A DNA stretch of 64,000 nucleotides from an uncultured bacterium (GTDB lineage Bacteria; Bacteroidota; Ignavibacteria; UBA10030; BY39), in assembly GCA_937967455.1 (NCBI GenBank), contig CALCJK010000011.1:1-64000 (forward strand). The letters run 5' to 3'. The notes under the pieces were generated by a model that searched no databases, was not told the DNA's origin, and saw nothing but the letters and a program-made list of their open reading frames with translations. Below, in pieces: positions 29,761 to 51,501 of this stretch (position 1 is the stretch's first letter; every line of letters begins with the position of its first letter). The translations under genes were made by a program, and so were the position numbers.

Positions 29761-31949
29761 TTTGTAGTCATTTCGAAAATACCATCCCACTCATCTGGTG
29801 GTGGTTGCTTCTTTAAGGAATTTACTCTCTCTATATATAATTTTGACGGATAATCATCTGGTTTCAATTTCAGTACTTCATTAAATTTTGCTAAAGCTTT
29901 TTCCCATTCTCTTTTTCTGTAAAAAGCTATACCTTCTGCAAAGAGTTCTATTAACTGTAATGTTTCAGATGGTACGGTGTTTTCCAATATTCCTAACAAT
30001 TCAAAAATTTTTATTGGTCTAGCTTTACCAATAACTCTAATTAAATCTAATTCGCGAGTAAGAACTTGTGATGCAACAAATTTGTAAGTGTTTTCACTTA
30101 GAATTATCTTTGTACGATAAAATTTGTTTGTAGCTTCGAGGCGAGAACCAAGGTTCACACTATCTCCAATGACTGTATAGTCGAATCTTTCAGCTCCTCC
30201 TATGTTTCCTACAATCATATCGCCTGTATTTATACCAATTCGGGTGATAAGTTGAAAATTTTTTGTTTCTTTCCAAATTTTATTTTTTTTATCTAAGAAT
30301 TCCTGCATTTCTATTGCTGCACGACATGCATTTAAGGCATGGTTTGGCAATGCTATTGGGGCACCAAAAAATGCCATTATCGAATCACCTTGATATTTAT
30401 CTAATGTTCCGCTATTTCTAAGTATTATCTCGGTAGTTGATTCAAAGTACTCATTCAGTAATTTAACTAATTCTTCTGGCGCTAATTGCTCAGCTATATT
30501 TGTGAACTTTTCAATATCGGAGAAAAATACTGTCAAGATTTTTCTTTCTCCACCGAGATGAAGTTTTTTTGGATCATCAATTAATTCATTTACAACCGTT
30601 GGATTTACATATTGGCTGAACATAGATTTTATCATAACTCGTTTTTGTCGCTCGGATACATAACTGAAAATCATGCTTCCTGTATATCCGAAAATAATTG
30701 CAAGAAATGGTCCAGTTAGTGGAGTAACATAATTATAATTTTGGAAAAGATATAAGGATAGGGCAAAAGTTAAAAATAATTCAGCGATTACAACAGCCAC
30801 TGCCAATATTTCTATAAGGTAATGGTGACGAATCTTTTCGCGTTTTAAATTTTGTATAAAGAAAAACGTTAATGTGAAAAATGCAAAAATTGTAATTATT
30901 TCCAGCCAGAGTGGTTCTCGAGTTAAAAAATTCCTGTCAAGTATACTCTGTATTATGTTTGCGTGGATTTCTACTCCAAACATCAAATTATCGCCTTCTT
31001 GCTTACCCTGTGATATTGGTATTGGAAAAAGATCTTTATCTTCTGGATTGGTAGAACCAACTAGTACAATTTTATCTTTAAATGTTCCATCGTATAAATA
31101 ACCGTCCTCGGGGTCATCGAAAGTGTTTATTCCTTCTCCGGTTTCTTTCTCTTCTTTTGTTTGAAATTCTTTGTCGTCAATTACGTCCACAAATTTGATT
31201 GTTGTAAAAGTACCAGATGGACCATAATAATTGATTAAAGCTGAGTATTCATCGTATGTTGGTATTTTAATATTATGATAAACGAAATATTTTGGATTTA
31301 TTTCAGGTGTGTGTAAAGGCGGTAGAGCAAAGTATTTGTTTAACACAGCAAAACTGAAAGTTGGAATTCTTCGTTGGCGTGCTCGATCATAAACTACTGG
31401 GTTAAATCTTCGATAAACTCCATCTTCATCGTTCCTCAAATAAACAATTCCAACTGAACTATCTACTTCGAAGAATATGTTCCCATAGTTTTCATTTAAA
31501 GTGATAAGATCGTATTTTTCGTTAGCAATTCTGATTTTACCCGCGAGTGCAACATTTGGTATGTCTTTAAGTGCTTTCTTAAAATCTTCATCATTTTTAC
31601 TGCTATAGAAATCTTCTGTATTCATAATTAGATCGATTCCTATAGCAGCTGCTCCCGCTCTTTGTAAGTTTCGAATCAACTTTGCATAATAAGATCTCGG
31701 CCAGGGCCATTTCTCAGGTAATGATTTTAACGACTCGTCATTAATTTCAACTATAATAACCCTGGGATCAAATGATAAAGTGCCTCTATTTTTAAATCGA
31801 TAATCGATAGTAGCTAATTCCACACGTTTGAATGGTGCAAATGTAAAAAATGATTCTTCGGTTAGAAATAGGATAACAAACGTTAGAATAATGCAAACTA
31901 GTATTTTTGTATAGAAAAATTTTACTTTTTTCTTTTTTCCATTTTGCAT
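29757..31949 (-). CDS. CHASE2-domain membrane adenylate cyclase
   Basis: 730 residues. One N-terminal transmembrane helix (about 12-32) leads to a periplasmic CHASE2 sensor domain (about 45-330). Three transmembrane helices follow (about 345-435), then a class III cyclase domain (about 475-655) and a short TPR-like tail. The metal-binding Asp residues are in FFSDIEKFT and KYQGDSIMAFFG. The Lys of LDKYQGD and the Asp of YTVIGDSVNL are the pair that selects adenine, so the product should be cAMP. The Asn and Arg that stabilise the transition state are in SVNLGSRLE. It lies 3 bases after the barrel gene and overlaps priA. The signal sensed is unknown; the FecR-domain and outer-membrane genes upstream are likely partners. 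Confidence 0.93.
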   Translation of the reverse strand: MQNGKKKKVKFFYTKILVCIILTFVILFLTEESFFTFAPFKRVELATIDYRFKNRGTLSFDPRVIIVEINDESLKSLPEKWPWPRSYYAKLIRNLQRAGAAAIGIDLIMNTEDFYSSKNDEDFKKALKDIPNVALAGKIRIANEKYDLITLNENYGNIFFEVDSSVGIVYLRNDEDGVYRRFNPVVYDRARQRRIPTFSFAVLNKYFALPPLHTPEINPKYFVYHNIKIPTYDEYSALINYYGPSGTFTTIKFVDVIDDKEFQTKEEKETGEGINTFDDPEDGYLYDGTFKDKIVLVGSTNPEDKDLFPIPISQGKQEGDNLMFGVEIHANIIQSILDRNFLTREPLWLEIITIFAFFTLTFFFIQNLKREKIRHHYLIEILAVAVVIAELFLTFALSLYLFQNYNYVTPLTGPFLAIIFGYTGSMIFSYVSERQKRVMIKSMFSQYVNPTVVNELIDDPKKLHLGGERKILTVFFSDIEKFTNIAEQLAPEELVKLLNEYFESTTEIILRNSGTLDKYQGDSIMAFFGAPIALPNHALNACRAAIEMQEFLDKKNKIWKETKNFQLITRIGINTGDMIVGNIGGAERFDYTVIGDSVNLGSRLEATNKFYRTKIILSENTYKFVASQVLTRELDLIRVIGKARPIKIFELLGILENTVPSETLQLIELFAEGIAFYRKREWEKALAKFNEVLKLKPDDYPSKLYIERVNSLKKQPPPDEWDGIFEMTTK

Positions 31950-31952
31950 ATT

Positions 31953-34313
31953 CTAAATATCGTACCTTATAACAAAACTTATTACTGATTCAGATCTTTT
32001 ATCTTGGTAAGTGTAAAGATTTAAATTACCTGTTAATAGTAATTTTGATATAATTTCATAAGCTGCACTAAAATCATAAGCAAATCTTTTGATATCTCCC
32101 AAAGTTGGTCTAATACCCATCATTAATTTTAATTTGTTGTTTAAGAGTGAATAATTTCCTAAAAGATTTAATGAGGTATACTTGAGTTTTTTAGTTTGCA
32201 AATCAGGTTGTAATTGGAATATACTGCTTGTGTAAGATATATTTAATGTGGTTTGAAGTGGTATCTTATAAAATGATGTTAAGCCAACTCCTACTGAAGT
32301 GTTTCGTGTATCAATATTTTTTAAGGTTCTGTCGTCTCTTTTTGATGTGCTGAAGTTAAAATTTAAGTTGTTATTTGCTAAGTATTTAAAATTGTAATTT
32401 AACTGCAGAAATACTCTATCATTTCTATCGTTTGTCTGGTATAAAGGATCTATAGTATTATTTTTTGTCGTTCCGTAAATATATCCCATCGATATATTAA
32501 AAAAGTTTAATGAAGGATAATAACTTATGGTACTACTTAAATTAGTGTAACTTGTTGTTGTTGGTTTAGAATTATCAGTGTTATCTTGTAGTTTTTCAAA
32601 TCCAAGCGCTAGGAAAATTTTGTTGCTTAAAATTCTCAATCGGTCAATCAAATTAAACCCCTGGATATCTTTTCTAATGTATGATTGTCCAAAGGATTCA
32701 TAAGCACTTCCACGTCTGAGTAATGAAAATTTGAAAATATTATTAAAGTAATTAAAACTAATTGCACCTTCGTAAGCTAGAGTTGTTAGATTTTTAAGTG
32801 AGAGAGGAACGATATGTTCATTCACAGTTATTAATTTGGATAGTGTATTTTTTGCTTTTCTGATTAGATCGCGTTCTGATTCAGTAAGTGATTTAAAGAG
32901 TGAATCAATATCTTCGTCTTTGATCGTTCCAACTGATATGTCGTTATTTACGACTGAAAATGCAGCCTGTGCTGTAAATTCGATTCTTCTTTTGTCTAAC
33001 GATATTCTCATATCGGAACCTAACACAAGATTTTCTTTTGGCATTAGTCCGTAACTTATCGAGTTTTTGTCATCTTTAGCTTTTAAAAATGTAAAGCCCC
33101 AGTCAAACCCTGAACCTTTTCCGAAAACTGGTCTAATTATCATCAGATTTCGTGTGAACTCACCTCTGTGAACTAACTTTAACCAGGTAGAATCATCATT
33201 TCTGAAATAAATTCCTGAAGGGTCATCTGGTGAATCAACAATTTGGACTTCACTTTCTATTTTCCTTATCGTGCTACCATAGACAAAGTCAAGACTAAAA
33301 AAACTGAGATGTGAATTTGCCGAAATTCCCCTTACTCTTTTTCCTGTCATAATTAAACTTGGGAAAATTGGATATGCATCACCAAATCCTAATTTCAGAT
33401 GTGGGATTTCAACGCCTATAAAATACCTGTTTTGTGGTTGCCTGTATGGTTTTTCTTCACCGGTTAGGTAAAGATTTGCATCAACTTTTATAAAATCATA
33501 TTCTGATCTAGCGTTTATTGTAGCACGATTGTATGTGTTGTGAAAGGATGCAATATTTTCATTCCTGTTTTCAAAGGCAAAAGATGCATTATATTTTAGG
33601 TGCTGAATTTTATATTTATCAGACATTAGATCAATTATTATGAATTGCCTGGTTTCAGTTATCAATTGTTCAAGTTGATTATTATAGAGTTCAATTCTTA
33701 TACTATGATTCCCTGATTTAATGGTGTCGTTTTCAAGCTTAATTATTGATAAATCTCCTGCCTGGAATATCTTATCAGAAATATTTTTTTCGTCTAAAAA
33801 TACCTTAATGTTTTTGATATCTATCGTTGTATCAGTATTTTCTAAAGAAAATGCAATCAATAAGTCGTTAGCGTTTGTTTTCTCATTTTGTGCAGGACTA
33901 TACCAGTTTATTTTTGTAATTGTTTTTTCTTTTATTGGAAGCTTGAGAGGTGCTAGTTTAGGATTTTCAAGTGGATATGTTTCAGGCTGTTCATCAGAAT
34001 TTGTGTAAAGAATGATATAATATTCGATGAATGGAGGCATTACATCAATCGCTGGAATCGCCGTAGATGCAAGATTGCCTTTTATATTCATTTCAAGGAC
34101 TTTGAATTCCGATTCACCATAATTTCTATATGCTAACTCAATTTTACTACAGCAGGTTGTGTTTGCAGTTAGTTGTATGGTGAAATTTAATGCTTCTCCT
34201 TCGATTAATGGTTCAGCACCTATATCTTGAATCTTATCGCTATATTGTGAGGTTGCAAAATAAAAATTTAAAATTAATAAAACAACTACGCTAAAAAATT
34301 TATGTATTTTCAT
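31953..34313 (-). CDS. Probable outer-membrane beta-barrel protein with N-terminal Ig-like region
   Basis: 786 residues. A signal peptide (about 1-22) is followed by one or two Ig-like beta domains (about 25-225). The first has an adjacent Cys pair (TCCSKIELAYRNYG). The long remaining part consists of alternating amphipathic strands typical of outer-membrane barrels and ends in SFVIRYDI. I do not recognise a named family. It is translated between the secreted FecR protein and the CHASE2 cyclase, with gaps of 7 and 3 bases, so all three are made together. A role in presenting an envelope signal to the cyclase is inference. Confidence 0.65.
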   Translation of the reverse strand: MKIHKFFSVVVLLILNFYFATSQYSDKIQDIGAEPLIEGEALNFTIQLTANTTCCSKIELAYRNYGESEFKVLEMNIKGNLASTAIPAIDVMPPFIEYYIILYTNSDEQPETYPLENPKLAPLKLPIKEKTITKINWYSPAQNEKTNANDLLIAFSLENTDTTIDIKNIKVFLDEKNISDKIFQAGDLSIIKLENDTIKSGNHSIRIELYNNQLEQLITETRQFIIIDLMSDKYKIQHLKYNASFAFENRNENIASFHNTYNRATINARSEYDFIKVDANLYLTGEEKPYRQPQNRYFIGVEIPHLKLGFGDAYPIFPSLIMTGKRVRGISANSHLSFFSLDFVYGSTIRKIESEVQIVDSPDDPSGIYFRNDDSTWLKLVHRGEFTRNLMIIRPVFGKGSGFDWGFTFLKAKDDKNSISYGLMPKENLVLGSDMRISLDKRRIEFTAQAAFSVVNNDISVGTIKDEDIDSLFKSLTESERDLIRKAKNTLSKLITVNEHIVPLSLKNLTTLAYEGAISFNYFNNIFKFSLLRRGSAYESFGQSYIRKDIQGFNLIDRLRILSNKIFLALGFEKLQDNTDNSKPTTTSYTNLSSTISYYPSLNFFNISMGYIYGTTKNNTIDPLYQTNDRNDRVFLQLNYNFKYLANNNLNFNFSTSKRDDRTLKNIDTRNTSVGVGLTSFYKIPLQTTLNISYTSSIFQLQPDLQTKKLKYTSLNLLGNYSLLNNKLKLMMGIRPTLGDIKRFAYDFSAAYEIISKLLLTGNLNLYTYQDKRSESVISFVIRYDI

Positions 34314-34320
34314 TAGCTAT

Positions 34321-35019
34321 TTATTCTTTGTATTTAAGTTTTAAATCTTTTTTATTACCTTCACTATCTTTTAATTCTAACTTTAGTTCATTATCTCTTT
34401 GGGTTTCCCCAATCTTAAGATTTTCTTCAGTGGCATTTACTTCTTCTTCTGTTGCTTTACGTATTTCAAGCCTTCCATCTGCATAAGAATAGCAAATCTC
34501 TCCCTCCTTTACGTCTGATTCCTTACCTGTGGTAATGTTTTTAATGTTAACAACACCTTCTAACACAATAAGTATGTCAAATTCATTTTGATGTGAAAAT
34601 ATACCACGAGTTCCACGAATTGATGCAACAGAAGTTGGGGATTCGAATGTGTATTGTTCGTTTTGTAGTTTTATAATATCAAATCCAAAAATACCTTTTA
34701 AAATTTTTATATTATTTATGATCTGACGATTTGATTTTTCACCCAATAGTATAAGTTCAGAATTTTCCAGAACACGCAAAATACTGTTGTCGGAAAATTT
34801 TATTATCGCTACAGATTTTTTTCCTGTACGCATTTGATCTCTGGTAAAGAGAGGTGTACCTTTATCAGCTTTGATCCATTCACTTTCGGGTTCTTTCTTT
34901 TCTACTTTATTAATGGCTTTCCTAACAACACCAAGTGTTTTTTTACTTAATTGTTCGTAAGAAAAATTAGTAGCTGAGAATCCAAGTATTAAAATAATTA
35001 TATATATTAATTTTTTCAT
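34321..35019 (-). CDS. Secreted FecR-domain protein
   Basis: 232 residues from the ATG at 35019, which has AAGGAG six bases upstream. A longer start would overlap the previous gene. A signal peptide (about 1-20) leads to a FecR domain (about 45-150): GTPLFTRDQMRTGKKSVAIIKFSDNSILRV, then an SPTSVASIRGTRG motif, which is typical. The C-terminal tail is acidic and lysine-rich. Unlike true FecR anti-sigma regulators it has no cytoplasmic helix and no sigma-factor gene beside it. Free-standing secreted FecR domains occur next to CHASE2 cyclases in other bacteria as far as I recall, which agrees with this operon. Confidence 0.88.
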   Translation of the reverse strand: MKKLIYIIILILGFSATNFSYEQLSKKTLGVVRKAINKVEKKEPESEWIKADKGTPLFTRDQMRTGKKSVAIIKFSDNSILRVLENSELILLGEKSNRQIINNIKILKGIFGFDIIKLQNEQYTFESPTSVASIRGTRGIFSHQNEFDILIVLEGVVNIKNITTGKESDVKEGEICYSYADGRLEIRKATEEEVNATEENLKIGETQRDNELKLELKDSEGNKKDLKLKYKE

Positions 35020-35029
35020 CTCATTCTCC

Positions 35030-36106
35030 TTAATTAAGTGATACATCATAAATATTGTCTGGATTCTCTTTCAAGAAATCTAGAATCTCTTGAAGTTCAG
35101 AGAGAGAAATTTTTTCACCATTTAAATAATATGTTTCTGATGTCTTGAAATTGTTTTTGGTGATATCCTCCGATACCTTTTTCCACTTTGTTTCTAAAAT
35201 TTTTTGTATCTGTTCCAGGATAATATCGGACTCGATTGGAATTTTATTATCCTCAATTTGGAATTGGTAGATCGGGCTGTATATAAGTTGTTCGCCTCCA
35301 AGACTTTTAACTCTACCTATAATTCTCCAGACATATGTCTTACCTTTTTCAAGTGGTCTTACACCATAAGCTGGATATTGGAAAGAAGATTGTCCACCTG
35401 TAAATGTATTATGATAAATAATTGGAAATTTGTTCAATGCTTCTTCTCTTGATATCCCTGCTGGTTTTTCGTTTATTGTTATTTCAACATCAGTACCATC
35501 AAAATACCATTCGAATAGTGGAAATTCGTTTGTAATATCTTCATCTCGTGGATAGCGAAGTTCTATCTGGGAGAAACTTTCTAAATTCAATTCTACATCT
35601 TTTTGACCACCAGTGTTGGTAGAACTTTCATAGACACCTATTTTGAAAATATAATTGCCGCTTGGAAATTTTCCTGAAGCTAGTGCTGGTTCTATTACAC
35701 TTTTTCTGGCTTCTTCACTTAATTTGAAATTCTTAATCTTAATTTCATTTCCAAAATCTAGATTTGTAATTGATTTTTGCCCTATTAATTGAAATGGTTC
35801 AGAGCCAAACCCCGGTTCCTCCAACAAATTAATTGTTATCCTATTCCTTAATGTGACTATAATTTTACAGGAATCTAAATAAACCATCCTTCCAGATTCT
35901 GGTGGTTCAGGATCTGTAATTTGTATTGTAAATAACCAAATTGAACTCTTAAGGTTTTGGAAGTCAATTTGTGAAGGTGATAGCTGCTGAATGTTGGCAT
36001 TTGAAATCGATATGTAAGGACTCCAATTTTGCCCATTTCCTAATGTAAATGTGAGAATAAGTAGGAGGAAAACTATGGTTGTCCTCAAATATATTTTTAT
36101 ATGCAT
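35030..36106 (-). CDS. Exported protein with FnIII/Ig-like region, function unknown
   Basis: 358 residues. The signal peptide covers about 1-25. A first beta domain (about 30-180) is followed by a fibronectin-type region (about 185-280) with LRYPRDEDITNEFPLFEWYF and TYVWRIIGRV, the 'P.F.W...Y.W.I' pattern of Ig-like modules seen in Ignavibacteria envelope proteins. The C-terminus is helical and acidic. No enzymatic motif is seen. It is the first gene of the operon that runs through FecR, barrel, cyclase and priA, with a sigma70-like promoter 41 bases upstream of its start. Confidence 0.6.
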   Translation of the reverse strand: MHIKIYLRTTIVFLLLILTFTLGNGQNWSPYISISNANIQQLSPSQIDFQNLKSSIWLFTIQITDPEPPESGRMVYLDSCKIIVTLRNRITINLLEEPGFGSEPFQLIGQKSITNLDFGNEIKIKNFKLSEEARKSVIEPALASGKFPSGNYIFKIGVYESSTNTGGQKDVELNLESFSQIELRYPRDEDITNEFPLFEWYFDGTDVEITINEKPAGISREEALNKFPIIYHNTFTGGQSSFQYPAYGVRPLEKGKTYVWRIIGRVKSLGGEQLIYSPIYQFQIEDNKIPIESDIILEQIQKILETKWKKVSEDITKNNFKTSETYYLNGEKISLSELQEILDFLKENPDNIYDVSLN

Positions 36107-40609: not shown

Positions 40610-43423
40610 TTGAAGTATATACTCAAAAAATATCTTTTTTTTCTTTTGTTCTTAATAGAAGCACTCCAAGCTCAGTTTTTTTATTTTGGGAGGAATAAAG
40701 TACAATATACTGAGTTCGATTGGCAGGTTTTAAAAACTAAACATTTTGATATTTACTACTATACGGGAATGGAGGATTTAGCCAATCGTGGAGCGTATAT
40801 TGCAGAACAAGCTTATAATGTACTGGAAAAGAAATTTAATCATAATATTCTGCATAGAATTCCGTTAATATTTTATAGTAATTCACTTCACTTCCAGCAA
40901 ACAAATGTAACTCCAGGATTTATTCCTGAAGGTGTGGGGGGCTTTTTTGAATTTTTAAAAGGTAGAGTGGTTATTCCTTTTAACGGTTCTTTCAAAGAAT
41001 TTCAACATGTCATACAGCATGAGCTTGTTCATGTATTCACGCATAATAAGGTTTCAAAAGTACTTAGTGAACATAGAAAAATTTCTGATCGTTTACCCCC
41101 ACTTTGGTTTATAGAAGGGCTTGCGGAATTCTGGTCTACAAGCTGGGATGTTCAGGCAGATATGATAATGCGAGATTTAGTGCTTAATAACAATATTGTA
41201 CCTCTCAACGATATTGAAAAAATTTATGGCTCATACTTGATGTACAAGGAGGGACAGAAAATACTGGAATATATTTCTGAAAAATATGGTGAAGAAAAAA
41301 TATTACTTTTGCTGGAAAATTTCTGGAAAGATGACAGATTTGAAAATGTTTTTAAATCTACACTGGGTGTGAATTATGAAGAATTCGATCGTGAATGGAT
41401 TTATGCAATGAAGAAAAAATATTATCCAATAATTTCCAGTTCTGATCATCCTAGTATCGTATCCAAAATAATTGTTAAAGAGGGGTTTAATACAAAACCT
41501 GTCTTTTATAAGTCGGATGATGATGACACAAGATATGTTTGTTTTATTGGCAATCACATAGGATATACAAGTTTATATAAACTTGAGCTGGGGAACGAAA
41601 AAGCTAAACCAAAACTTCTGATTAAGGGGGAAAGTACAGATGAATTTGAAGCTTTCCATTTGTTCCAAAGTAAATTATCAATTTCAAAAGATGGTATTCT
41701 TTCGTTTATAACTAAAAGCGGAGAGAAAGATGTTATTCACTTGCTAAATTTAAAAAATGAAAAAATAATTGAGACATTGAAATTTGATGAATTAATCTCG
41801 ATTAGTTCAGCATCATGGTCAGGGGATGGAAAAAATCTTGTATTATCTGCATCTGGTGTAAATGGTTATTATGATTTATACATCTATAATTATGAGGAAA
41901 GAACTTTAAAAAAACTTACCAACGATATTTACAATGACCGTGATCCAGTTTGGTCAATTGATGGTAATTTCATTATATTTAGTTCAGATCGCACATTATA
42001 TGGAGCTCAGGGGTTTTACAATCTTTTTATATATTCTTTTAAAACAAATCATATTTATTATTTAACATGTGGAGAAGAAAATTATTATTCACCAGAGTTC
42101 TCAAAGGATGGTAAATTTTTGGTTTTTGTTTCAGACATTGGTGGAGCCAGAAACATATGGTTGATGAATTGGCAGGATTCAATCTTTACAAAAATTTTTC
42201 GTATCACTAATTTTACAACTGCTGCTTTTGATCCTGTGTTCACAGACGAAAATAATTTGTTATTTACTTCTTTCGAAAATTATAATTTCACAATTAATCA
42301 ACTCGATGATGTTGGAAATTTATATCTTAATTCTACTGAGATACATAGCATTATCACTAATATTGATAACCAAAAATGGACAACTGAAAGTATGATTGGT
42401 AGCTCTGAAACAAAAAGATATAAGTATTTTGGTGAATATAGCATAGATATAGCGCAAAGCCAGATTTCTACAGATCCAGTTTTTGGAACCTCAGGTGGAG
42501 CCTTTATTGCATTAAGTGATCTATTGGGTGATGAACAATATTATTTTCTGGTATATAATACCGCACAGAGCCAATCTGAAATAATGCAAAGTTTTAATTT
42601 TGCGATATCCCGGATTTCTCTCGCAAAAAGAACTAATTTTGGTTATGGGGTATTTAGATTTTCAGGAAGAAGATACGACTTAACTGACCCTGATTATTTT
42701 TATTTTGAAAAAGTCTTTGGTGGTTATTTTGTTTTGAGCTATCCACTCTCAAAATTCAAAAGAATAGAATTAGCAGCTAGTATTAGTAATTCTGAAAAAG
42801 AAATTATAGAAGGTTTTGGAGGAAGGAAAGCCCTTTTTGTATCAAATTCTTTAACATTTGTACACGACAATTCTCTTTGGAGTTTGTGTGGCCCAATCGA
42901 TGGTAGCAGATTTAAAGTTACATTTGCATATACAACTGATGTACAATATTCCAATGCTAACTATTATTCCTTCATTTTTGATTATCGCTATTATTTACGA
43001 CTAACTTTAAGAACCGCATATGCAATTAGATTCTGGCTTTTCTACAATGAAGGTCAGGAAGCAAGAAGGTTTTTTATGGGAGGAAATTGGGACTTGCGTG
43101 GATATCCGAGATGGTCAATAAGAGGTCAAAAACTTTGGCTAATATCACATGAGCTAAGATTTCCATTGATAGATGAATTCTTTATTAAGTTTCCATTTGT
43201 TGGTATAAGATTATCAGGTTTCAGAGGCGCAGTTTTTTTTGATGCTGGTAGCGCCTGGGACAAGGTTTATAAACAAACACTTGGTAGTTTTGGTGCTGGA
43301 ATTCGCTTTAATTTAGGAGGTTTCTTGGTTCTACGATACGATTTCGGTAAAAGGATAGAAAACAACTTCTCTACAATACAAAATAATTATTTCCATCAAT
43401 TTTTCTTTGGATGGGATTTCTAA
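40610..43423 (+). CDS. Gluzincin-like peptidase domain fused to TolB propeller and Omp85-type barrel
   Basis: 937 residues with a TTG start directly after the previous stop, followed by a good signal peptide (about 1-22). The N-terminal peptidase MA-like domain has HELVH near residue 140 and a downstream WFIEGLAEF that supplies the third zinc ligand. TolB/WD40-like propeller repeats follow (about 330-520), for example SWSGDGKNLVLSA and DPVWSIDGNFIIFSS. The C-terminal part (about 600-937) is an Omp85-like barrel ending in a Phe. A protease, propeller and barrel in one chain suggests an outer-membrane processing or assembly protein. The exact task is unknown. It begins the envelope cluster that runs to sppA. 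Confidence 0.82.
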   Translation: MKYILKKYLFFLLFLIEALQAQFFYFGRNKVQYTEFDWQVLKTKHFDIYYYTGMEDLANRGAYIAEQAYNVLEKKFNHNILHRIPLIFYSNSLHFQQTNVTPGFIPEGVGGFFEFLKGRVVIPFNGSFKEFQHVIQHELVHVFTHNKVSKVLSEHRKISDRLPPLWFIEGLAEFWSTSWDVQADMIMRDLVLNNNIVPLNDIEKIYGSYLMYKEGQKILEYISEKYGEEKILLLLENFWKDDRFENVFKSTLGVNYEEFDREWIYAMKKKYYPIISSSDHPSIVSKIIVKEGFNTKPVFYKSDDDDTRYVCFIGNHIGYTSLYKLELGNEKAKPKLLIKGESTDEFEAFHLFQSKLSISKDGILSFITKSGEKDVIHLLNLKNEKIIETLKFDELISISSASWSGDGKNLVLSASGVNGYYDLYIYNYEERTLKKLTNDIYNDRDPVWSIDGNFIIFSSDRTLYGAQGFYNLFIYSFKTNHIYYLTCGEENYYSPEFSKDGKFLVFVSDIGGARNIWLMNWQDSIFTKIFRITNFTTAAFDPVFTDENNLLFTSFENYNFTINQLDDVGNLYLNSTEIHSIITNIDNQKWTTESMIGSSETKRYKYFGEYSIDIAQSQISTDPVFGTSGGAFIALSDLLGDEQYYFLVYNTAQSQSEIMQSFNFAISRISLAKRTNFGYGVFRFSGRRYDLTDPDYFYFEKVFGGYFVLSYPLSKFKRIELAASISNSEKEIIEGFGGRKALFVSNSLTFVHDNSLWSLCGPIDGSRFKVTFAYTTDVQYSNANYYSFIFDYRYYLRLTLRTAYAIRFWLFYNEGQEARRFFMGGNWDLRGYPRWSIRGQKLWLISHELRFPLIDEFFIKFPFVGIRLSGFRGAVFFDAGSAWDKVYKQTLGSFGAGIRFNLGGFLVLRYDFGKRIENNFSTIQNNYFHQFFFGWDF

Positions 43424-44577
43424 TGAAAACTTGTTTAAAACTTTCCTTACTGGTTATTGTCTTTTTCCTTTTGCTTTCCTGTAGTAGCATTCAGCTTCAG
43501 AAATATATAAAAATAAATAATTCGGATTTTCCCATGTTTGGGGTTAATCCTTCAAGAACAAACTTTTACGATTCTGATATTAACTCTCCACTTGAAAAAT
43601 TCTGGGAATATGATGCTGACGCGGGCTTTAGTAAGTATTCTGCTGTAATTGCTGATAGTATTCTCTTTTTACCTACTCTTTATGGTGAATTACATTTAAT
43701 TAACATATTTACTGGTAAAAGAATAGCAAAGCAAAAATTTACCGCTCCAATATCGGGTTCTATTGCTATTGATGACAATGTAGTATTTCTTACTTTTTCA
43801 AATTCAAAAACTTCATTAATATGTTATGCACTGATAGAGGGAAAGGTTAAATGGGAACTTAAAATTGGAGATATTGAATCTGCACCATTATTGTATGAGA
43901 AAAAATTGTTCATATCCAATTTAGATGGTAAACTTTTTTCAATCGATAAAAATAATGGAATTATAAACTGGTCCTTTACACCTGAAAACAAAATAATAAA
44001 AGCCTCTTATTCCTCACCTGCAACTAATGGCAAAGTGGTGATTTATGGATGTGACGATGGTAATCTTTATGCAGTTGATTTTGATAATGGAAAGTTAAAA
44101 TGGAAATTTAAAACAAATGGAAGCATTAAATCTAACCCTTCAATCAATGAAGGAGCTGTATATTTTGGTTCACAGGACGGATATTTTTACTGTTTAAATA
44201 TTGAAAACGGTGAACTTTTATGGAAATATAATTTTCAATATCCTCTTTACAACTCTCAAGCATTAAGTGATTCTTTTCTTTATATGAGCACTCCAGATGG
44301 ATTTTTAAGATGTTTGAATGCTTTTTCTGGAAAAGAAATATGGAAATTTTTTTCAGGTTCGTTATCAGGATATGCTCCTTTAGCAGTAAAAAATTATATT
44401 ATTATTGGTGCTTATAACAAAAACATTTATGTCATTGATTCAAAGACAGGCAATCTATATTGGTCATATCAATTGAATGGAAGAATTAAAAGTTCACCAA
44501 TTTATTGGAAAAAATTTTTAATAGTTATGACCGATAATCAAACCGTTTATTGTTTTGTAACAAAAAATGAAAATTAA
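43423..44577 (+). CDS. BamB-like PQQ-propeller lipoprotein
   Basis: 384 residues from the ATG at 43423, which overlaps the previous stop (TAATG); an ATG four codons upstream is less likely. A lipoprotein signal ends in LLSC near residue 20. The rest is a beta-propeller with repeated 'G.LYWS/G.LKWKF' blades (for example GKLKWKF, GELLWKY and GNLYWSY), as in PQQ-binding-like and BamB proteins. BamB helps the BAM complex fold barrels at the outer membrane. Its place next to an Omp85-type gene supports an assembly role, but identity with BamB is not shown. Confidence 0.82.
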   Translation: MKTCLKLSLLVIVFFLLLSCSSIQLQKYIKINNSDFPMFGVNPSRTNFYDSDINSPLEKFWEYDADAGFSKYSAVIADSILFLPTLYGELHLINIFTGKRIAKQKFTAPISGSIAIDDNVVFLTFSNSKTSLICYALIEGKVKWELKIGDIESAPLLYEKKLFISNLDGKLFSIDKNNGIINWSFTPENKIIKASYSSPATNGKVVIYGCDDGNLYAVDFDNGKLKWKFKTNGSIKSNPSINEGAVYFGSQDGYFYCLNIENGELLWKYNFQYPLYNSQALSDSFLYMSTPDGFLRCLNAFSGKEIWKFFSGSLSGYAPLAVKNYIIIGAYNKNIYVIDSKTGNLYWSYQLNGRIKSSPIYWKKFLIVMTDNQTVYCFVTKNEN

Positions 44578-45331
44578 TAAAGCAAATAATAAAATACTTC
44601 TGGTAATTTTTGCACTCGTGGTTTTTGCTTGTTCATCGCAATCGCAATTAGATGAATCGTATTTATCAGTTGAATCAAATATTAATGGAGCAAAAGTATA
44701 TCTGGATTCGAACTTGATAGGTGAAACACCGCTTCATAATTTAAATGTAATACCAGGTGAATATAATTTAAAAGTTGTTTATCCCGATGAAAAATCATGG
44801 AATAAATCAATATACAATGAAAATATTAAATTAAAATCAGGTGAATATCTGAAAAGATTTATTGAATTAGAAAATATTTTTATCATCAACTCCAATCCAA
44901 GTGACGCAAAAGTGTATATCGGCGATTCTTTAATAGGTACAACACCAGTATTTTATTTTACAAAATTATCTGAATTGCTTGTGAGAGTTGAAAAAGAAAA
45001 TTACGAAACAACAATGATTAGACTAAAAAATACGAATAATTATCACGAAATAATGCTTTTTAAAAAGGAAATTAAAGGAAATTCTAAACCTAATCTTAAG
45101 GTCTCATTTCTACCTGCTGAAGTTTATGTTGCAGGTGGGAGTGCAATAATATTCGGTTCGAGTGCTGCTTTATTAAAAGTGAAAGCTGATGAACACTACA
45201 AAAAATACAGAAATACTGGCGATAAAAATGAGCTAGCACAGGTCAGGAAATTTGATAAATTATCTGGAATTTCTTTATTTTTATGCGAAATTAGCAATAT
45301 TTTACTTGTTTATTTGCTTTTATTAAGATAA
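44567..45331 (+). CDS. PEGA-domain lipoprotein
   Basis: 254 residues. The lipoprotein signal ends in VFAC near residue 20. Two PEGA-type beta domains follow (about 33-95 and 100-160): VESNINGAKVYLDSNLIGETPL and NSNPSDAKVYIGDSLIGTTPV. Two weakly hydrophobic helices are near the C-terminus. PEGA domains are extracytoplasmic surface modules without known catalysis. It overlaps the preceding lipoprotein by 11 bases. Confidence 0.85.
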   Translation: MKINKANNKILLVIFALVVFACSSQSQLDESYLSVESNINGAKVYLDSNLIGETPLHNLNVIPGEYNLKVVYPDEKSWNKSIYNENIKLKSGEYLKRFIELENIFIINSNPSDAKVYIGDSLIGTTPVFYFTKLSELLVRVEKENYETTMIRLKNTNNYHEIMLFKKEIKGNSKPNLKVSFLPAEVYVAGGSAIIFGSSAALLKVKADEHYKKYRNTGDKNELAQVRKFDKLSGISLFLCEISNILLVYLLLLR

Positions 45332-45383
45332 ATTGTTTAAATTTAAAAAAATATGTTAGAACTAAATTTTCAGGAATATACAA

Positions 45384-47774
45384 ATGCAAGATAAAGGGAG
45401 TTTTAAAATAACAGATGATTTAAAAAAGCGTGCAGAAGATTTAGCTCAAAAAACCGAAACCAATGAAATACTTAGAATCGATGAATTAATAAAAAAAGCG
45501 GAAGAATTTGCATCGATGCGAAACAGAGATTTCTTGGATAAATGCGAAGCTAAATTAAAATTGGCTGAACAAATTTTTGAGCAATCAAAAAAATATCTAA
45601 TTGAGCGTGAAGAAGAAATTAATAAAATTTTAAAAGAAGAAAGAATCAAGAAGTTAGAGGCCTACAGGAAACAACTTGAAGAGAAAAAATTAAGGGAAGA
45701 GGAAGAACGTAGAAGGATCGAAGAAGAAAAACGTAAGAAGGAAGAAGAAGAACTGCGCAGGATAGAAGAAGAGAAAAGATTAAAAGAGGAATTGCAGCGT
45801 AGACGAGAAGAAGAAGAAAGATTGCGTAAGGAAGAGGAAGAACGCCAAAAGCGAGAAGAAATCGAATTGAAAGTTCAATCATTATTGATGCAAGCGAAAG
45901 AATATTTTGATAATGGAAATTATGAATCTGCTCTGATTGAAATTGCCAAGGCACTTGTGCATAATCCGGAACATCAAGAAGCTCTTGAGTTGAGACAGAA
46001 AATTAAACAAGCTCAAGGTGCAACTACTCAGATTGTTGAAAAAGTCGAAGAGAATAAGAAAATTGAGAAAATTGAAGTCGAGCCTGTTTCAAAAACTAAA
46101 ACTTCAGTACCAACTTTTCAGGAGAAAAAAAGAAAAAAAATAAATATTATTCCATACGCATTAGTAATTTTTGCATTAATAGCGTTTATAATTTATCATT
46201 ATTCACCTCAATTCTTCTATAAGCCTCCAACACTTGTAGTTTTGCCTTTTAAAAGTGAAACTGGAATTCTTGAAGAAAATGTTCTGGGCAAGGGGATTTC
46301 AGAAGATATTGTAAACCGACTTTATTATATTAAAGATTTAAAAATAATGGGATATGAATCGGCACTTTTTATTTCAAACTATTATTTGGATCCAAGTGTT
46401 TTAATTTTTCAAACAGGCTATAATAAAATCTTAGAAGGGAAAATTAAACAGCTAGATAATCAAATATTGATAAAATTGGTGCTTAGAGATACGACCGGAA
46501 ATGGGATAGAAAAAGAAATTTTACATGATAGGGATAAACTTTTTGAACTACCAGCTCTGATATGTAAAGAAATTGCTAAAGTCCTAAAAATAGAAAATGA
46601 GAAAATTAGTGAATCTGCATTTAGAATTGCTACTTCAGATAATTCAGCTTACTTGATGTATTTGCGTGGACTTGAGATGATACATCGCAAAACAGTAGAA
46701 AGCATTAATAATGCTCAACAACTATTTGATTATGCAGCATCTCTTGATGATAGTTTTGTAGAATCTTTTGCGATGAGTGGATATACTTCACTCTTACAGC
46801 TTGAATATAATTATAATAACCCAGATGAAAATTTTACGAAAGCAAATAATATGCTGGAAAGAGCAGATATAAAAATGCTGAATCCACTTTTTGTAAAACC
46901 TAAAATCATTTTGTTAAATATTTATAAAAAAGATTTTACAAGTGCTAAAAATATTCAGAAACAGCTTGAATCCGTTGGCTTAAACATTCCTGAAGTTTAT
47001 AAATATAATGGTAAATTAAACATATTAACTGGAAATTATAAAGACGCTATTGATGCTCTTGTGATGGCTCAAAAATTAGATCCTTATGATTTTGATCTCT
47101 TGAGATTAATTTCTAAAGCAACTCAATTAAATAATGAACATAAAACAGCTTATCAACTTTATAATCAATATAGTGCATTTTTTGAGGACACTTCTTTTTC
47201 TGTTTCAAATGATTTATCCAATATAATTTTAAATGATCCCGAGTTAATGGTTAAATATTCGGACAGATTAATTCAGATTTTAGAGAAAAGAATAGAACGA
47301 AATCCCAAGGATTTTAAAGATAGATATAAACTTGCTCGTATCTACCAGATGAATGGAAAATATTCTGAGGCTGAACCAATACTAATCAAATCACTTGATC
47401 TTAATGATTTAGAGTATATTAAAATGCCAAAGAATCCTGAAATTTTGATTTACAGAGCTTTGATTTATACACGGCTTGGTAGATTTAACGATGCAGTAAA
47501 GTTGGCTCAAAGTGCAGTTCAGCTTTCAAATGATGATCATCGTATTTATTATAAAGCAGCTCAGATGTATGCAATTCAGGCTGGAGGTAATGATACATTG
47601 TATTATGACAAGAAGACAAAACGACCTGTTTTAAAAGAATTTATAAAATCAATTGAATTACTAAATCAGGGTGTAGAAAAGTATTTTGATCTTGATGAAA
47701 TTCTTGATGTAGATTTTTTCAATTTGCGCCATACTGAAGAATTTAAATATGCAATCAAACTGAAGGGGAAATAA
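45384..47774 (+). CDS. Membrane-anchored protein: charged helix, TPR, TolB-like N domain and TPRs
   Basis: 796 residues. Residues about 75-165 form a continuous Glu/Arg/Lys-rich helix (ER/K pattern), followed by one TPR-like unit (about 170-205). A single transmembrane helix lies at about 254-272. Outside it is a segment starting PPTLVVLPFKSE (about 285-400), the FlgO/TolB-N-like fold that often precedes TPRs in cyclase-type regulators, and then many TPRs to the end. It has no signal peptide, so the helix and first TPR should be cytoplasmic and the long TPR part periplasmic. No enzymatic motif is visible. The N-terminal half resembles the next gene. Confidence 0.7.
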   Translation: MQDKGSFKITDDLKKRAEDLAQKTETNEILRIDELIKKAEEFASMRNRDFLDKCEAKLKLAEQIFEQSKKYLIEREEEINKILKEERIKKLEAYRKQLEEKKLREEEERRRIEEEKRKKEEEELRRIEEEKRLKEELQRRREEEERLRKEEEERQKREEIELKVQSLLMQAKEYFDNGNYESALIEIAKALVHNPEHQEALELRQKIKQAQGATTQIVEKVEENKKIEKIEVEPVSKTKTSVPTFQEKKRKKINIIPYALVIFALIAFIIYHYSPQFFYKPPTLVVLPFKSETGILEENVLGKGISEDIVNRLYYIKDLKIMGYESALFISNYYLDPSVLIFQTGYNKILEGKIKQLDNQILIKLVLRDTTGNGIEKEILHDRDKLFELPALICKEIAKVLKIENEKISESAFRIATSDNSAYLMYLRGLEMIHRKTVESINNAQQLFDYAASLDDSFVESFAMSGYTSLLQLEYNYNNPDENFTKANNMLERADIKMLNPLFVKPKIILLNIYKKDFTSAKNIQKQLESVGLNIPEVYKYNGKLNILTGNYKDAIDALVMAQKLDPYDFDLLRLISKATQLNNEHKTAYQLYNQYSAFFEDTSFSVSNDLSNIILNDPELMVKYSDRLIQILEKRIERNPKDFKDRYKLARIYQMNGKYSEAEPILIKSLDLNDLEYIKMPKNPEILIYRALIYTRLGRFNDAVKLAQSAVQLSNDDHRIYYKAAQMYAIQAGGNDTLYYDKKTKRPVLKEFIKSIELLNQGVEKYFDLDEILDVDFFNLRHTEEFKYAIKLKGK
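45630..45875 (+). repeat. Purine-rich low-complexity tract coding a charged helix
   Basis: Mostly GAA, AGA, AAG and GAG triplets, translating to runs such as EEERRRIEEEKRKKEEEE. It encodes the single-alpha-helix part of the protein at 45384. Confidence 0.85.
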
Positions 47775-47777
47775 ATC

Positions 47778-49061
47778 ATGGAAGATGAAAAAGAATTATC
47801 AAAAGAAGAAAGAAAAGAAATAGCCCGAGAAAAATTATTAACTACAGATAAGTTGTTCAAAGCTGGCGACTATAAAAATGCATTAAAAACTATAGAAGAG
47901 GCATTAAATGTGGATCCTGAAAATTTTTATGCCCTTGCTTATAAAGATAGAATTTTAAATGTACTGGAGCAGGAATCAAGTGTTGAGCAAACTGAATTAG
48001 AAAAAACTAAAACCAAAGATGAAGTTAAACAGAAAACTCAACAGGAAGCTTTGAAGAAATTAAAAGAACAACAATTAAAAGAAGCTGAAGAAAAAAAGAA
48101 AAGGGAAGAAGAGGCTCGCAGGATTGCTGAAGAAGAACTTCGTAGAAGAGCTGCAGAATTAGAGATGCTCAGAAAAGCAGAGGAAGAAGAAAAAAAATTA
48201 AAAGCAATAGAGGAAGAAAAAAGAAGAAAGATGGAAGAGCTTCGTAAAAAACAAGAAGCAGAAGAACAAGCTCGAAGATTAGCGGAAGAACAAGCCCGAA
48301 AACGCCAACTTGAAGAACAGGAAAGAAAACGAAAGGAAGAAGAAGCAAGAAAAAAAGCTGAGGAATTAGAACGTAAGAAACGTGAAGAAGAGGAAAGAAG
48401 GCGAAGAGAAGAAGAAGAAATTCGTCGTAAAGCTGAGGAGGCTAAGAGAAAAGCTGAAGAGGAATTAAAGAAAAAACTCGAAGAAGAAAAGAGAAAAAAA
48501 CAAGAAGAAGAGTATTTAAAATCTATAGAGGTAGAAACTATATCGAAAACACGAGAAAAGAAAATTAAGGAGTTTATCGAACAGGCTAAAACATTTGTTA
48601 ATGAAAATAAATTTAATGAAGCAACTGTAGAGATTGCAAAAGTACTCCTAATTGATCCCAAAAATACCGAAGCTTTACAACTTGAAGAGATTTTACAACA
48701 GAAGCTAATGAAACAAATTGAAGAAGAATTTGAGACAAGGAAAAATTTGCCAAGAAATATGATTTTGGAATCATATAAAAGAACAATAAAGGAAGCTTGG
48801 ATTGACGGTGCTTTAAGTGTTGATGAGGTCACTCAAATTGAAATGAGAAAAAGAGAATTAGATATCTCTGAAATTGAGCACAGAGATTTGGAAAGGGAAA
48901 TTCAGCTAGAGTGTTATGAACAGAATTTAAGAGAATTTTGGAAAGATGGAGCAATAACACCAGAAGAACAGGACTGGTTAGATATTTTAAGAGAGGAGTT
49001 AAAAATAACTCCCGAGGAGCATCTCGAGATTGAAAAGAAAGTTAGAAAAGAAATGACATAA
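47778..49061 (+). CDS. TPR protein with long ER/K helix and duplicated TerB-like C-terminus
   Basis: 427 residues. A TPR-like unit (about 15-60, LFKAGDYKNALKTIEEALNVDP) is followed by a very long charged helix (about 85-255) rich in E, K and R. A second TPR-like unit comes next (about 265-310, FVNENKFNEATVEIAKVLLIDP). Near the C-terminus are two similar helical repeats of about 45 residues, YKRTIKEAWIDGALS and YEQNLREFWKDGAIT, each with a following ITPEE/VDEV-type turn; this recalls TerB-like or EF-hand-less acidic folds. It has no signal or membrane segment and is likely cytoplasmic. It resembles the upstream protein's N-terminal half, so the two may form a scaffold pair. Confidence 0.65.
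   Translation: MEDEKELSKEERKEIAREKLLTTDKLFKAGDYKNALKTIEEALNVDPENFYALAYKDRILNVLEQESSVEQTELEKTKTKDEVKQKTQQEALKKLKEQQLKEAEEKKKREEEARRIAEEELRRRAAELEMLRKAEEEEKKLKAIEEEKRRKMEELRKKQEAEEQARRLAEEQARKRQLEEQERKRKEEEARKKAEELERKKREEEERRRREEEEIRRKAEEAKRKAEEELKKKLEEEKRKKQEEEYLKSIEVETISKTREKKIKEFIEQAKTFVNENKFNEATVEIAKVLLIDPKNTEALQLEEILQQKLMKQIEEEFETRKNLPRNMILESYKRTIKEAWIDGALSVDEVTQIEMRKRELDISEIEHRDLEREIQLECYEQNLREFWKDGAITPEEQDWLDILREELKITPEEHLEIEKKVRKEMT
48040..48530 (+). repeat. Long purine-rich low-complexity tract coding a charged helix
   Basis: About 490 bases dominated by GAA/AGA/AAG. It codes the long single alpha-helix of the protein at 47778. The tract produces a false serine-rich ORF on the opposite strand. 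Confidence 0.85.
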
Positions 49062-49092
49062 AGTTTTTTAAAATAAAAAATCTGGAGGGAAA

Positions 49093-51477
49093 ATGAAAAA
49101 AAATATTTTAGCCTTGCTATTAATTGCTTTTTCAATTTCATATTCGCAGGAGAGTTCACTTTTTAATGTATTTTACCCCACATTTATAAAATCCGTTTTT
49201 TCCGCAGGTGTGGATGACGCTTCAGGTGTTGCAATCAATCCAGCTGCTGTTGGATTCGAACAGGAAAATAATATTTTTTTTAATACTACTTTTCATAAAA
49301 ATAAAATCAACGAGAACTTAATATACTTAAATACAAGAATTTTTAAATTTGGACTGAGCTTAAATTTTAAAAATTCAACTGAATACTCAAGAAAAAATAC
49401 ATTATATTCCATTGGTTATGGTTTTGGCTTTGGGGATGAAAAGTTCGCATTTGGTTTTAATTTGGATAATGTATGGCAGAATAAATCATTTTCTAATATT
49501 AAAACATTTTATAATCTCGGATTCATATTGCGTCCCATTAGATATGTTTCATTAAGTTATTCGCTTCTGAATGCAGGTTGGAAAAATGTTGCAGGCAGAG
49601 ATATTAGGGCTACAAACATTTTTGGAATTGGTGTTAGACCACTTGGAACAAATCGAATTACACTCTTCTTTGATTATGAATATGATACAAACTTGAAGAT
49701 CAAAGAAATTCCATATAAATATGGCGCTCAAATAAAAATTGCAAATGGCTTGTTCGTTTATGGAAGTTTGTATGATACAAGAGGAATTAACGGGAAAAAT
49801 TATTATTTAGGTTTACGCTTTGACTTTTCTCACATTGGCATTGATTATAGAAGCGCTTTTAACGAAGCGAAAGATAATAATATTAATAATTTTTCATTAT
49901 ATTTAAATCGTGCTAAAAAACCAAGTTTGGTCAGGGGAAAAATTAAAATTGCGGAAATTACAATTGAGGGTGACTACAATGATTTTGATGAACCAGCAGG
50001 TTTGTTTTCCAGGACTAAGAAAGGTTTGCAATCTTTAATTGGAGAGATTGATCGTGCAGCGAATGATGATGATGTTGGTGGAGTACTTTTAAATATAAAA
50101 AGCTTTACTACACCTTATGCAATTTTTGGTATGAATTCAGGTCTTGAAGAATTAGCTTCTGCAATTTTAAGGGTAAAAGCTAAAGGCAAACCAGTTGTAG
50201 CGTTCATTGAATCTATGGGAAGTTTGCATGAAATTTATCTCGCTGTATGCACAGACAAAATAGTCTTACCTCAATATGGAATGCTGGCTGGATATGGAAT
50301 ATCATATAATAATATTAAACTTAAATATGCACTTAAAAAACTGGGAATTGATGTCAGAACATATACTGCTGGAAAGTACAAATCGTCTCTGAATGATTTA
50401 TCAGATACTTTATCAATTGCAAAAATTGAAGAATTGAATTCACTTATTGATGATTTGTATGATAAAATGGTTGAGCATATTAAAACCCATAGAAAATTAA
50501 GCGATAGTATAATAGATTCATTGTCTGGAATGATGAATTCTGAACAAGCACTGAATGCAGGTGTTATTGATATGGTTGGTTGGTATGAAGATGCAAAAAA
50601 GGAAATATACAAAATGGTTAAAAATAAGGAAATAGAAAAAGGAGAAGATGTTAAAACATTTAAAATTGCAGAAAGAAAATATTGGAATGAATACTGGAAC
50701 TCCCCTGATAAAATAGCGATAGTTGGAATTTATGGAACAATTGTACAGGGTGAGAGTCAACCACCAAGTTTAGTCCCAATTCCATTTTTATCTTCACCAC
50801 GCTCGACTGGATCAAAGACTGTAATAAGGCAATTGGAGAAAGCCTTGAAAGACCCAAGTGTTAAAGCAATCATTTTAAGAGTTGATAGTCCTGGTGGAGA
50901 TGGAATTGCTTCAGATGATATTTATCGTGCGGTAGTAAAAGCAAGAGAAAAAAAGACTGTTATAGTTTCAATGGGAAGTTTAGCAACATCAGGTGGATAT
51001 TATGTTTCGGCACACGGTGCAAAAGTTTTTGCAAATCATACAACACTCACAGGTAGTATTGGTGTGATTGCTCAAATTCCGTTCTTATACGATCTTTTTC
51101 AAAAGTATGATGTTTATACAAAGAGTTTCAATCGTGGTAGTTTTAGTGAATATTTTAACTTTTATGTTGAACCAAAACCAGAGGCTGAGAAAATGTTAAA
51201 CGATGCGTTAAACAATTTTTATGAAGGATTTATAAAAAGAATTTCAGAAGGTAGAAAATTGTCTGAAGAAGAAGTAAAGTTAGTCGCTCAGGGGAGAATA
51301 TGGACAGGTAAACAGGCAAAAGAAAGGAATTTGATTGATGAGTTTGGTTCACTTTATGATGCAATTCAATATGTAAAACAGATATGTAATCTTGGAGATG
51401 ATACAAAAATTGAGTATTATAGCGTACCTTCATTTATGTTTGGTGTTGGTTCGATAATTTCAAATTTAATCAAATGA
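49093..51477 (+). CDS. sppA: Signal peptide peptidase SppA (67K type) with N-terminal outer-membrane-like barrel
   Basis: 794 residues. The signal peptide covers about 1-18. Residues about 20-275 look like a beta-barrel of the PorV/FadL style, starting SAGVDDASGVAINPAAVGFEQ. From about 280 there are two tandem SppA domains. The catalytic dyad is intact: Lys430 in TAGKYKSS and Ser633 in ATSGGYY. SppA normally digests leftover signal peptides in the inner membrane. Fusion to a barrel would place the protease at the outer membrane or periplasm; this is inference. Its stop codon is inside the palindrome shared with gmhA. Confidence 0.88.
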   Translation: MKKNILALLLIAFSISYSQESSLFNVFYPTFIKSVFSAGVDDASGVAINPAAVGFEQENNIFFNTTFHKNKINENLIYLNTRIFKFGLSLNFKNSTEYSRKNTLYSIGYGFGFGDEKFAFGFNLDNVWQNKSFSNIKTFYNLGFILRPIRYVSLSYSLLNAGWKNVAGRDIRATNIFGIGVRPLGTNRITLFFDYEYDTNLKIKEIPYKYGAQIKIANGLFVYGSLYDTRGINGKNYYLGLRFDFSHIGIDYRSAFNEAKDNNINNFSLYLNRAKKPSLVRGKIKIAEITIEGDYNDFDEPAGLFSRTKKGLQSLIGEIDRAANDDDVGGVLLNIKSFTTPYAIFGMNSGLEELASAILRVKAKGKPVVAFIESMGSLHEIYLAVCTDKIVLPQYGMLAGYGISYNNIKLKYALKKLGIDVRTYTAGKYKSSLNDLSDTLSIAKIEELNSLIDDLYDKMVEHIKTHRKLSDSIIDSLSGMMNSEQALNAGVIDMVGWYEDAKKEIYKMVKNKEIEKGEDVKTFKIAERKYWNEYWNSPDKIAIVGIYGTIVQGESQPPSLVPIPFLSSPRSTGSKTVIRQLEKALKDPSVKAIILRVDSPGGDGIASDDIYRAVVKAREKKTVIVSMGSLATSGGYYVSAHGAKVFANHTTLTGSIGVIAQIPFLYDLFQKYDVYTKSFNRGSFSEYFNFYVEPKPEAEKMLNDALNNFYEGFIKRISEGRKLSEEEVKLVAQGRIWTGKQAKERNLIDEFGSLYDAIQYVKQICNLGDDTKIEYYSVPSFMFGVGSIISNLIK

Positions 51478-51501
51478 GATGTTCAGCTGAACATCTCATT
51501 T
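51472..51501. terminator. Perfect 30-bp palindrome, shared terminator of sppA and gmhA
   Basis: AAATGAGATGTTCAG (51472-51486) is the exact reverse complement of 51487-51501. It holds the sppA stop (51475-51477) and the gmhA stop (minus strand, 51483-51485). It ends in A- and T-rich flanks on both sides, so it can act in both directions. Confidence 0.8.

Follow-up and report, generated by a model that had tools for sequence, protein, structure and literature searches.

A predicted peptidase-propeller-Omp85 protein with conserved BamB-like and PEGA neighbours in a composite gene cluster of an uncultured ignavibacterium

Six consecutive envelope-related genes, P1 to P6, of an uncultured member of the Ignavibacteria very probably comprise three modules set side by side, P1-P2-P3, P4-P5 and P6, the first of which appears from sequence comparison to be an old and widely kept outer-membrane-type module of the phylum. 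Its central component, P1, is predicted to be an Omp85-superfamily barrel in which a TolB-like propeller and a gluzincin peptidase take the place of the POTRA domains. Omp85 proteins with a propeller have been described already; the true peptidase motif of P1 and its two conserved neighbours appear to be new.

Results

Layout and conservation of the gene cluster

The cluster occupies positions 40610-51477 of the window, the whole 64,000-nucleotide stretch analysed here, which comes from a 2.55-Mb genome. In the ORF list of the window, it consists of six consecutive plus-strand ORFs (Table 1) encoding proteins of 937, 388, 254, 796, 427 and 794 aa, with tight intergenic spacing from P1 to P6 (-13, -11, +52, +3 and +31 nt) and a terminator-like hairpin behind P6. 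The same-strand run begins upstream of P1, with idsA, HPr, ptsI and pgi, and the metabolic genes conserved 5′ of P1 are fni-idsA-HPr-ptsI-pgi. A separate row on the minus strand (29757-36106) holds a CHASE2-guanylate cyclase with TPR, a weakly porin-like protein of 786 aa, a FecR protein and a 358-aa protein without a match.

Table 1. Genes of the cluster and features within them, with positions in the window
Feature	Position	Strand	Basis or remark
P1: signal peptide, gluzincin peptidase (38-285), TolB-like propeller (286-580), Omp85 barrel (602-937)	40610..43423	+	Pfam, AF2, Foldseek
P1 HELVH zinc-binding motif, residues 137-141	41018..41032	+	H137, E138, H141 invariant in 31 homologues
P1 E169, candidate third ligand	41114-41116	+	invariant in 31 homologues
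P1 LRG in loop-6 type motif GGNWDLRGY, residues 829-831	43094..43102	+	R830, G831 invariant in 31 homologues
P2: BamB-like PQQ-propeller lipoprotein, lipobox Cys24	43411..44577	+	PQQ_2 124 bits; overlaps P1 end
P3: two PEGA domains, conserved C-terminal hydrophobic hairpin	44567..45331	+	PEGA 72.8 bits
P4: ER/K helix (80-174) and TPR unit, TM (251-275), extracytoplasmic domain and TPR array	45384..47774	+	sequence analysis
P4 ER/K helix, residues 80-174	45621-45905	+	charge pattern
P4 TM segment, residues 251-275	46134-46208	+	single TM
P5: TPR unit, ER/K helix, TPR unit, two ENT-like repeats	47778..49061	+	sequence analysis
P5 ER/K helix, residues 70-257	47985-48548	+	charge pattern
P5 ENT-like repeats (two)	about 48765-49058	+	PF03735
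P6: signal peptide, putative PorV-like beta-barrel (~25-275), tandem S49 SppA (~290-780)	49093..51477	+	S49 201 bits
P6 catalytic Lys428	50374-50376	+	kept in 13/13
P6 catalytic Ser633	50989-50991	+	kept in 13/13
Terminator-like hairpin, bidirectional, P6/gmhA interval	51472..51501	.	13-bp stem

Gene order was surveyed across 98 genomes of the order with P1, P2, P4, P5 and P6 as queries, and 40, 13 and 7 loci of P1, P4 and P6, respectively, were inspected. P2 directly adjoins P1 in 71 of 74 genomes, with the two genes overlapping in 27 of the 71 adjacent pairs, and P4 and P5 lie side by side without exception (22 of 22 genomes), as a fixed pair. By the same survey, P1 is linked to P4 in 4 of 30 genomes and to P6 in 4 of 26, and P5 to P6 in 4 of 10. 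The links of P1 to P4 and to P6 occur only in G000, G001, G003 and G004, all of the window's own family (f1), to which the P5-P6 links are likewise confined, and the arrangement of all six genes was seen in 4 genomes from two genera of this family. The remaining families of the order that possess P4-P5 and P6 all carry them elsewhere, and outside f1 P3 is followed not by P4 but by genes for a Crp regulator and a PHP protein, by ribH, PorZ, DUF3276 and yceD-plsX-fab. Contig ends restrict individual cases of gene order; whole families are nonetheless consistent. PorZ, of the type IX secretion system, is located a few genes 3′ of P1-P2-P3 in most other families, and scores 311-382 bits against a cut-off of 260 at P1 loci outside f1 (e.g., L029:13033-15297).

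The original prediction, which joined the six genes into one envelope cluster resembling no named system, was right about the run of tightly spaced same-strand genes and the domains of most of the products (protease-propeller-barrel, BamB-like, PEGA, ER/K-TPR and SppA), the barrel proposed for P6 being the call that remains putative, from a secondary-structure pattern. The single unit, by contrast, did not survive: because the order is loose outside f1, with the members apart, the gene-order tally rules out one six-gene system as a general statement and confines the idea to f1, where it is weighed below. As for the lack of a named counterpart, we found no paper in the open literature searched that names or describes P1-P2-P3 or P4-P5. 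What is left of the original view is the deeply conserved trio of outer-membrane type, for which we found no name, and P4-P5 as an invariable pair.

A phylum-wide search of 395 genomes extended the survey to other classes, with 20 distant loci inspected, 19 of them containing P1. P2 adjoins P1 at 15 of these 19 loci, P3 comes second at 13, and metabolic genes lie 5′ of P1 at 13; at L144-L147, P2 is kept beside P1 despite the absence of these metabolic genes. P1 stands without P2 and P3 in a few cases (L132, L139 and L140), and the trio is thus not obligatory.

P1-P2-P3

The P1 gene starts with a TTG codon. Pfam families Peptidase_MA_2 and PD40 were both matched in 31 of 31 P1 homologues, and the HExxH motif, together with a downstream W-F-x-E-G, is intact in all 58 full-length homologues. 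The HExxH and the downstream Glu place P1, a predicted peptidase, among the gluzincins of the Peptidase MA clan. At the C-terminus, the Omp85 family PF01103 scored 46.4 bits (cut-off 24) in a whole-genome Omp85 search and was matched in 22 of the 31 homologues; an hmmscan of the window P1 alone missed this family, a discrepancy with the whole-genome search. The C-terminal aromatic residue, F937, is kept in at least 90% of the 31 homologues, and 51 of the 58 end in FFFGWDF. The AlphaFold2 (AF2) model of P1 (mean pLDDT 75) shows alpha-helices in the N-terminal domain, then a propeller and, at the C-terminus, a barrel whose N-terminal half has a pLDDT of 36-60 over most of residues 590-710. Foldseek searches with this model yielded TolB as the best match (1.4e-10), followed by BamA/TamA (about 1e-8), and profile matches to the PDB placed TolB at residues 387-512 and BamA at 774-913, whereas a Foldseek search of viral structures returned propeller matches alone and was uninformative. 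Thus, P1 is predicted to have the barrel, the loop-6 RG and the C-terminal aromatic residue of Omp85 proteins but not their POTRA domains, for which Pfam gave no match in the window protein or its homologues, the region being occupied by the propeller.

P1 homologues are present in 98 of 98 genomes of the order, in most of them near-full-length and 55-88% identical, and full-length homologues with 42-56% identity were recovered from other classes in the phylum-wide search. The named relatives are mostly MAGs of Ignavibacteriae/Bacteroidota, the closest being 'Ignavibacteriae bacterium isolate BY39' (88% identical). Besides P1, the genome of the window codes for a separate BamA-type Omp85 of 787 aa (L153), which rules out P1 as its housekeeping BamA, and additional Omp85 proteins beyond P1, L153 and L154. 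The last of these, on contig C2 of G000, is a PlpD-like patatin-Omp85 of 900 aa that adjoins a 701-aa membrane protein. On contigs C3 and C10 of G000, L152 and L157 encode HExxH proteins of 1041 and 1035 aa with barrel-like ends, probably paralogues of the P1 architecture.

P2, by far the top PQQ_2 match in the genome, has the features of a PQQ-propeller lipoprotein, with the lipobox C24 invariant in 19 sequences, but falls short of the curated BamB equivalog score (NCBIfam TIGR03300, 128.4 bits against a cut-off of 285.2). In P3, the C-terminal residues G197, K204 and D230 are invariant, and the N-terminus of the window protein is lipobox-like. Export signals are found on P1, P2 and P3 alike.

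P4-P5

The original prediction held that two rigid scaffolds with long helices could bridge compartments. The helices themselves are real: opposite and like i,i+4 charge pairs number 48:0 in P4 80-174 and 75:0 in P5 122-257, hydrophobic residues make up 12-19% of the ER/K segments, and both segments have, by this pattern, true single-alpha-helix-type sequence. The bridging role found no support. No signal peptide or TM segment was found in P5, which is predicted to be cytosolic, and the ER/K part of P4 precedes its one TM segment and is assigned to the cytosolic side by the positive-inside rule. Moreover, P5 homologues in family f5 reach 777-1067 aa, the added length being mostly charged helix with far longer ER/K runs, and such variable length argues against a fixed-length ruler. 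On these three grounds, ER/K helices spanning the periplasm are ruled out.

The ENT assignment of the P5 repeats is graded: PF03735 scores 26 bits in the window protein, below the threshold of 28.5, and 44.9 and 32.3 bits in the orthologues L060 and L061, and the match to EMSY PDB chains is weak (E=0.05). The ENT domain of EMSY belongs to a family known mainly from eukaryotes. With the ENT-like repeat region and a TPR unit as the query, matches were obtained in 90 of the 98 genomes of the order, at up to 11 places each. A 264-aa antisense ORF (48038-48832, minus strand) faces the ER/K run of P5 and is most likely an artefact of repetitive codons. A FlgO-like identity of the P4 extracytoplasmic domain reached just 13 bits in one orthologue and is not claimed. 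We suggest that P4-P5 is an independent bicistron, in which P4 would be an inner-membrane protein with its TPR array facing the periplasm, and P5 a scaffold of the ER/K-TPR-ENT-like type in the cytosol and the probable binding partner of the corresponding ER/K-TPR tail of P4.

P6

With tandem S49 domains and the catalytic Lys and Ser, P6 is an SppA and a predicted protease. It scores 258 bits in SppA_dom, over the cut-off, exceeds the cut-off of TIGR00706, and remains, at 258, below the 311 of TIGR00705 (67K). About 13 antiparallel strands are predicted in the N-terminal region, but the model has a pLDDT below 50 there, and Pfam and NCBIfam gave no match to a barrel family. With its putative barrel, P6 may be an outer-membrane-targeted SppA-type protease.

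In the P6 tree, the copies of G000/G001 (L020, L021) separate from those of G003/G004 (L023, L024), which rules out a single inherited gene at this locus. The two subfamilies are deep, about 26-32% identical in the SppA part and not orthologues by sequence; one also occurs in family f2 and the other in families f3 to f6, and P6 of the window type is rare, found in f10 and f18 in a second search. The presence of two subfamilies in one slot implies that the barrel-SppA beside P5 was probably replaced in place or arrived twice. Judging from the sequences, this shared slot is the sole evidence found that ties P6 functionally to its neighbours.

Discussion

The boundaries of the modules, their domains, the intactness of the catalytic motifs and the degree of conservation can all be read from the sequences compared here; the function of the trio has to be approached by analogy. 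The three-module view with P1-P2-P3 as a protease-bearing unit for assembly or quality control at the outer membrane is, in our assessment, about evenly balanced between right and wrong, and the job itself, which would be to assemble outer-membrane proteins or to police them by proteolysis, is at best even as to mechanism and perhaps slightly below. P1 would be anchored in the outer membrane via its Omp85-type barrel, with the TolB-like propeller and the zinc peptidase facing the periplasm and standing in for POTRA, a placement that follows the precedent of PlpD and of Omp85 proteins in general. The BamB-like lipoprotein P2 would dock on P1, and the PEGA-bearing membrane protein P3 would belong to the same complex. 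On their way through the P1 barrel, outer-membrane or secreted proteins would be assembled or proteolytically checked, such that the trio would be equivalent in function to BamA, BamB and the BepA protease as one unit. We favour this reading because BepA on BAM offers a parallel for a peptidase at an Omp85 barrel, and BamB one for P2. We infer, in the same conditional sense, the complex of P1-P2-P3, its protease activity, substrate class and periplasmic topology, and the binding between P4 and P5.

Alternatively, P1-P2-P3 could be a secretion device of a type Vd-like kind, unrelated to the assembly of outer-membrane proteins, in which the Omp85 barrel exports its own or its partner's protease/propeller domain to the surface. 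Indeed, TpsB-type relatives of Omp85 translocate proteins, and PlpD was long interpreted in this way, as the main text of a survey of the superfamily describes (PMC4104836). However, the enzyme domain of PlpD has been shown to be periplasmic (PMC11116518), and P2, a lipoprotein of the periplasmic type, better suits a periplasmic machine, so that we consider such export improbable. A still less probable scenario is that the neighbourhood arose by chance within a housekeeping operon, with the cohesion of P1-P2-P3 reflecting operon inertia and not joint function. Given that the conserved upstream genes are metabolic, the adjacency could partly have this origin, and fni-idsA-HPr-ptsI-pgi is similarly conserved without an obvious envelope link; yet P2 stays with P1 at the distant loci that have lost those genes, and all three proteins of the trio carry export signals.

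Within f1, the six genes might instead constitute one lineage-specific envelope machine, P4-P5 and the barrel-SppA having been recruited beside an older trio, a possibility to which we assign the same low probability as to operon inertia. The tight spacing with one terminator at the cluster end speaks for it, as does the order held across two genera despite P4 and P5 being 46-48% identical, and the two P6 subfamilies in one slot across these genera suggest selection for a barrel-SppA there, which is an argument against treating the modules of f1 as fully independent. Conversely, the arrangement is known from 4 genomes only, P4-P5 and P6 are found elsewhere in all other families, and P5, predicted to be cytosolic, shares neither a domain nor a localisation with the predicted outer-membrane proteins P1 and P6. 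We retain the three-module view. In its boldest form, this view would make P1-P2-P3 a self-contained 'proteolytic Bam': a channel of the Omp85 type that carries a metalloprotease of its own and a TolB-like propeller and works with a BamB-like partner and a PEGA protein. Such a unit would date back to the early history of the phylum and be required for producing or policing outer-membrane or secreted proteins, and one family would have recruited P4-P5 and the barrel-SppA alongside it; this we put forward tentatively, as somewhat unlikely in full.

Regardless of the exact role, the WD40-type Omp85 proteins, listed since 2014 as an uncharacterised subfamily, can, to judge from P1, carry an intact zinc peptidase motif, and across several classes of the phylum P1 has a BamB-like lipoprotein and a PEGA protein as companions. 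Should the three form a complex, a protease, a propeller and an insertion barrel would be combined in one polypeptide, and outer-membrane quality control would become testable with a few point mutants.

Comparison with known systems

P1-P2 resembles BamA-BamB in pairing an Omp85 barrel with a PQQ-propeller lipoprotein, but P1 lacks POTRA, the genome has a BamA-type Omp85 at another locus, and P2 stays under the BamB cut-off. Among peptidase-like Omp85 proteins, the family PF00149 has to be kept apart, as we take it to be a calcineurin-like metallophosphoesterase, not an HExxH peptidase. It is on PF00149 that the 'metalloprotease' Omp85 subfamily rests in the main text of the 2014 survey (PMC4104836), which also accepts Omp85 subfamilies that lack POTRA. 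Closest to P1 by description in that text is the WD40-Omp85 subfamily, whose function is given as uncharacterised (Heinz and Lithgow 2014, PMC4104836) and which shares with P1 an Omp85 barrel and an N-terminal TolB-like beta-propeller without POTRA; the propeller of P1 conforms to this description through PD40 and the top structural match to TolB. P1 differs in adding an N-terminal gluzincin peptidase, which the main text of the survey does not mention, and in having conserved BamB-like and PEGA neighbours. BepA (M48), which acts on LptD at BAM (PMC8423444), shares with P1 the HExxH zinc peptidase and a proposed site of action at an Omp85 barrel, but is a separate protein, whereas the predicted peptidase of P1 is fused to the barrel and is placed in the MA family, not specifically in M48. 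The fusion of an enzyme domain N-terminally to an Omp85 barrel is shared with PlpD and the patatin-Omp85 proteins; PlpD, however, is a lipase with POTRA, P1 combines a peptidase with a propeller, and the genome has a patatin-Omp85 of its own. Finally, P6 parallels the 67K signal peptide peptidase SppA (S49) in its tandem S49 domains with the catalytic Lys and Ser retained, the TM anchor of the latter being replaced in P6 by a putative N-terminal outer-membrane barrel.
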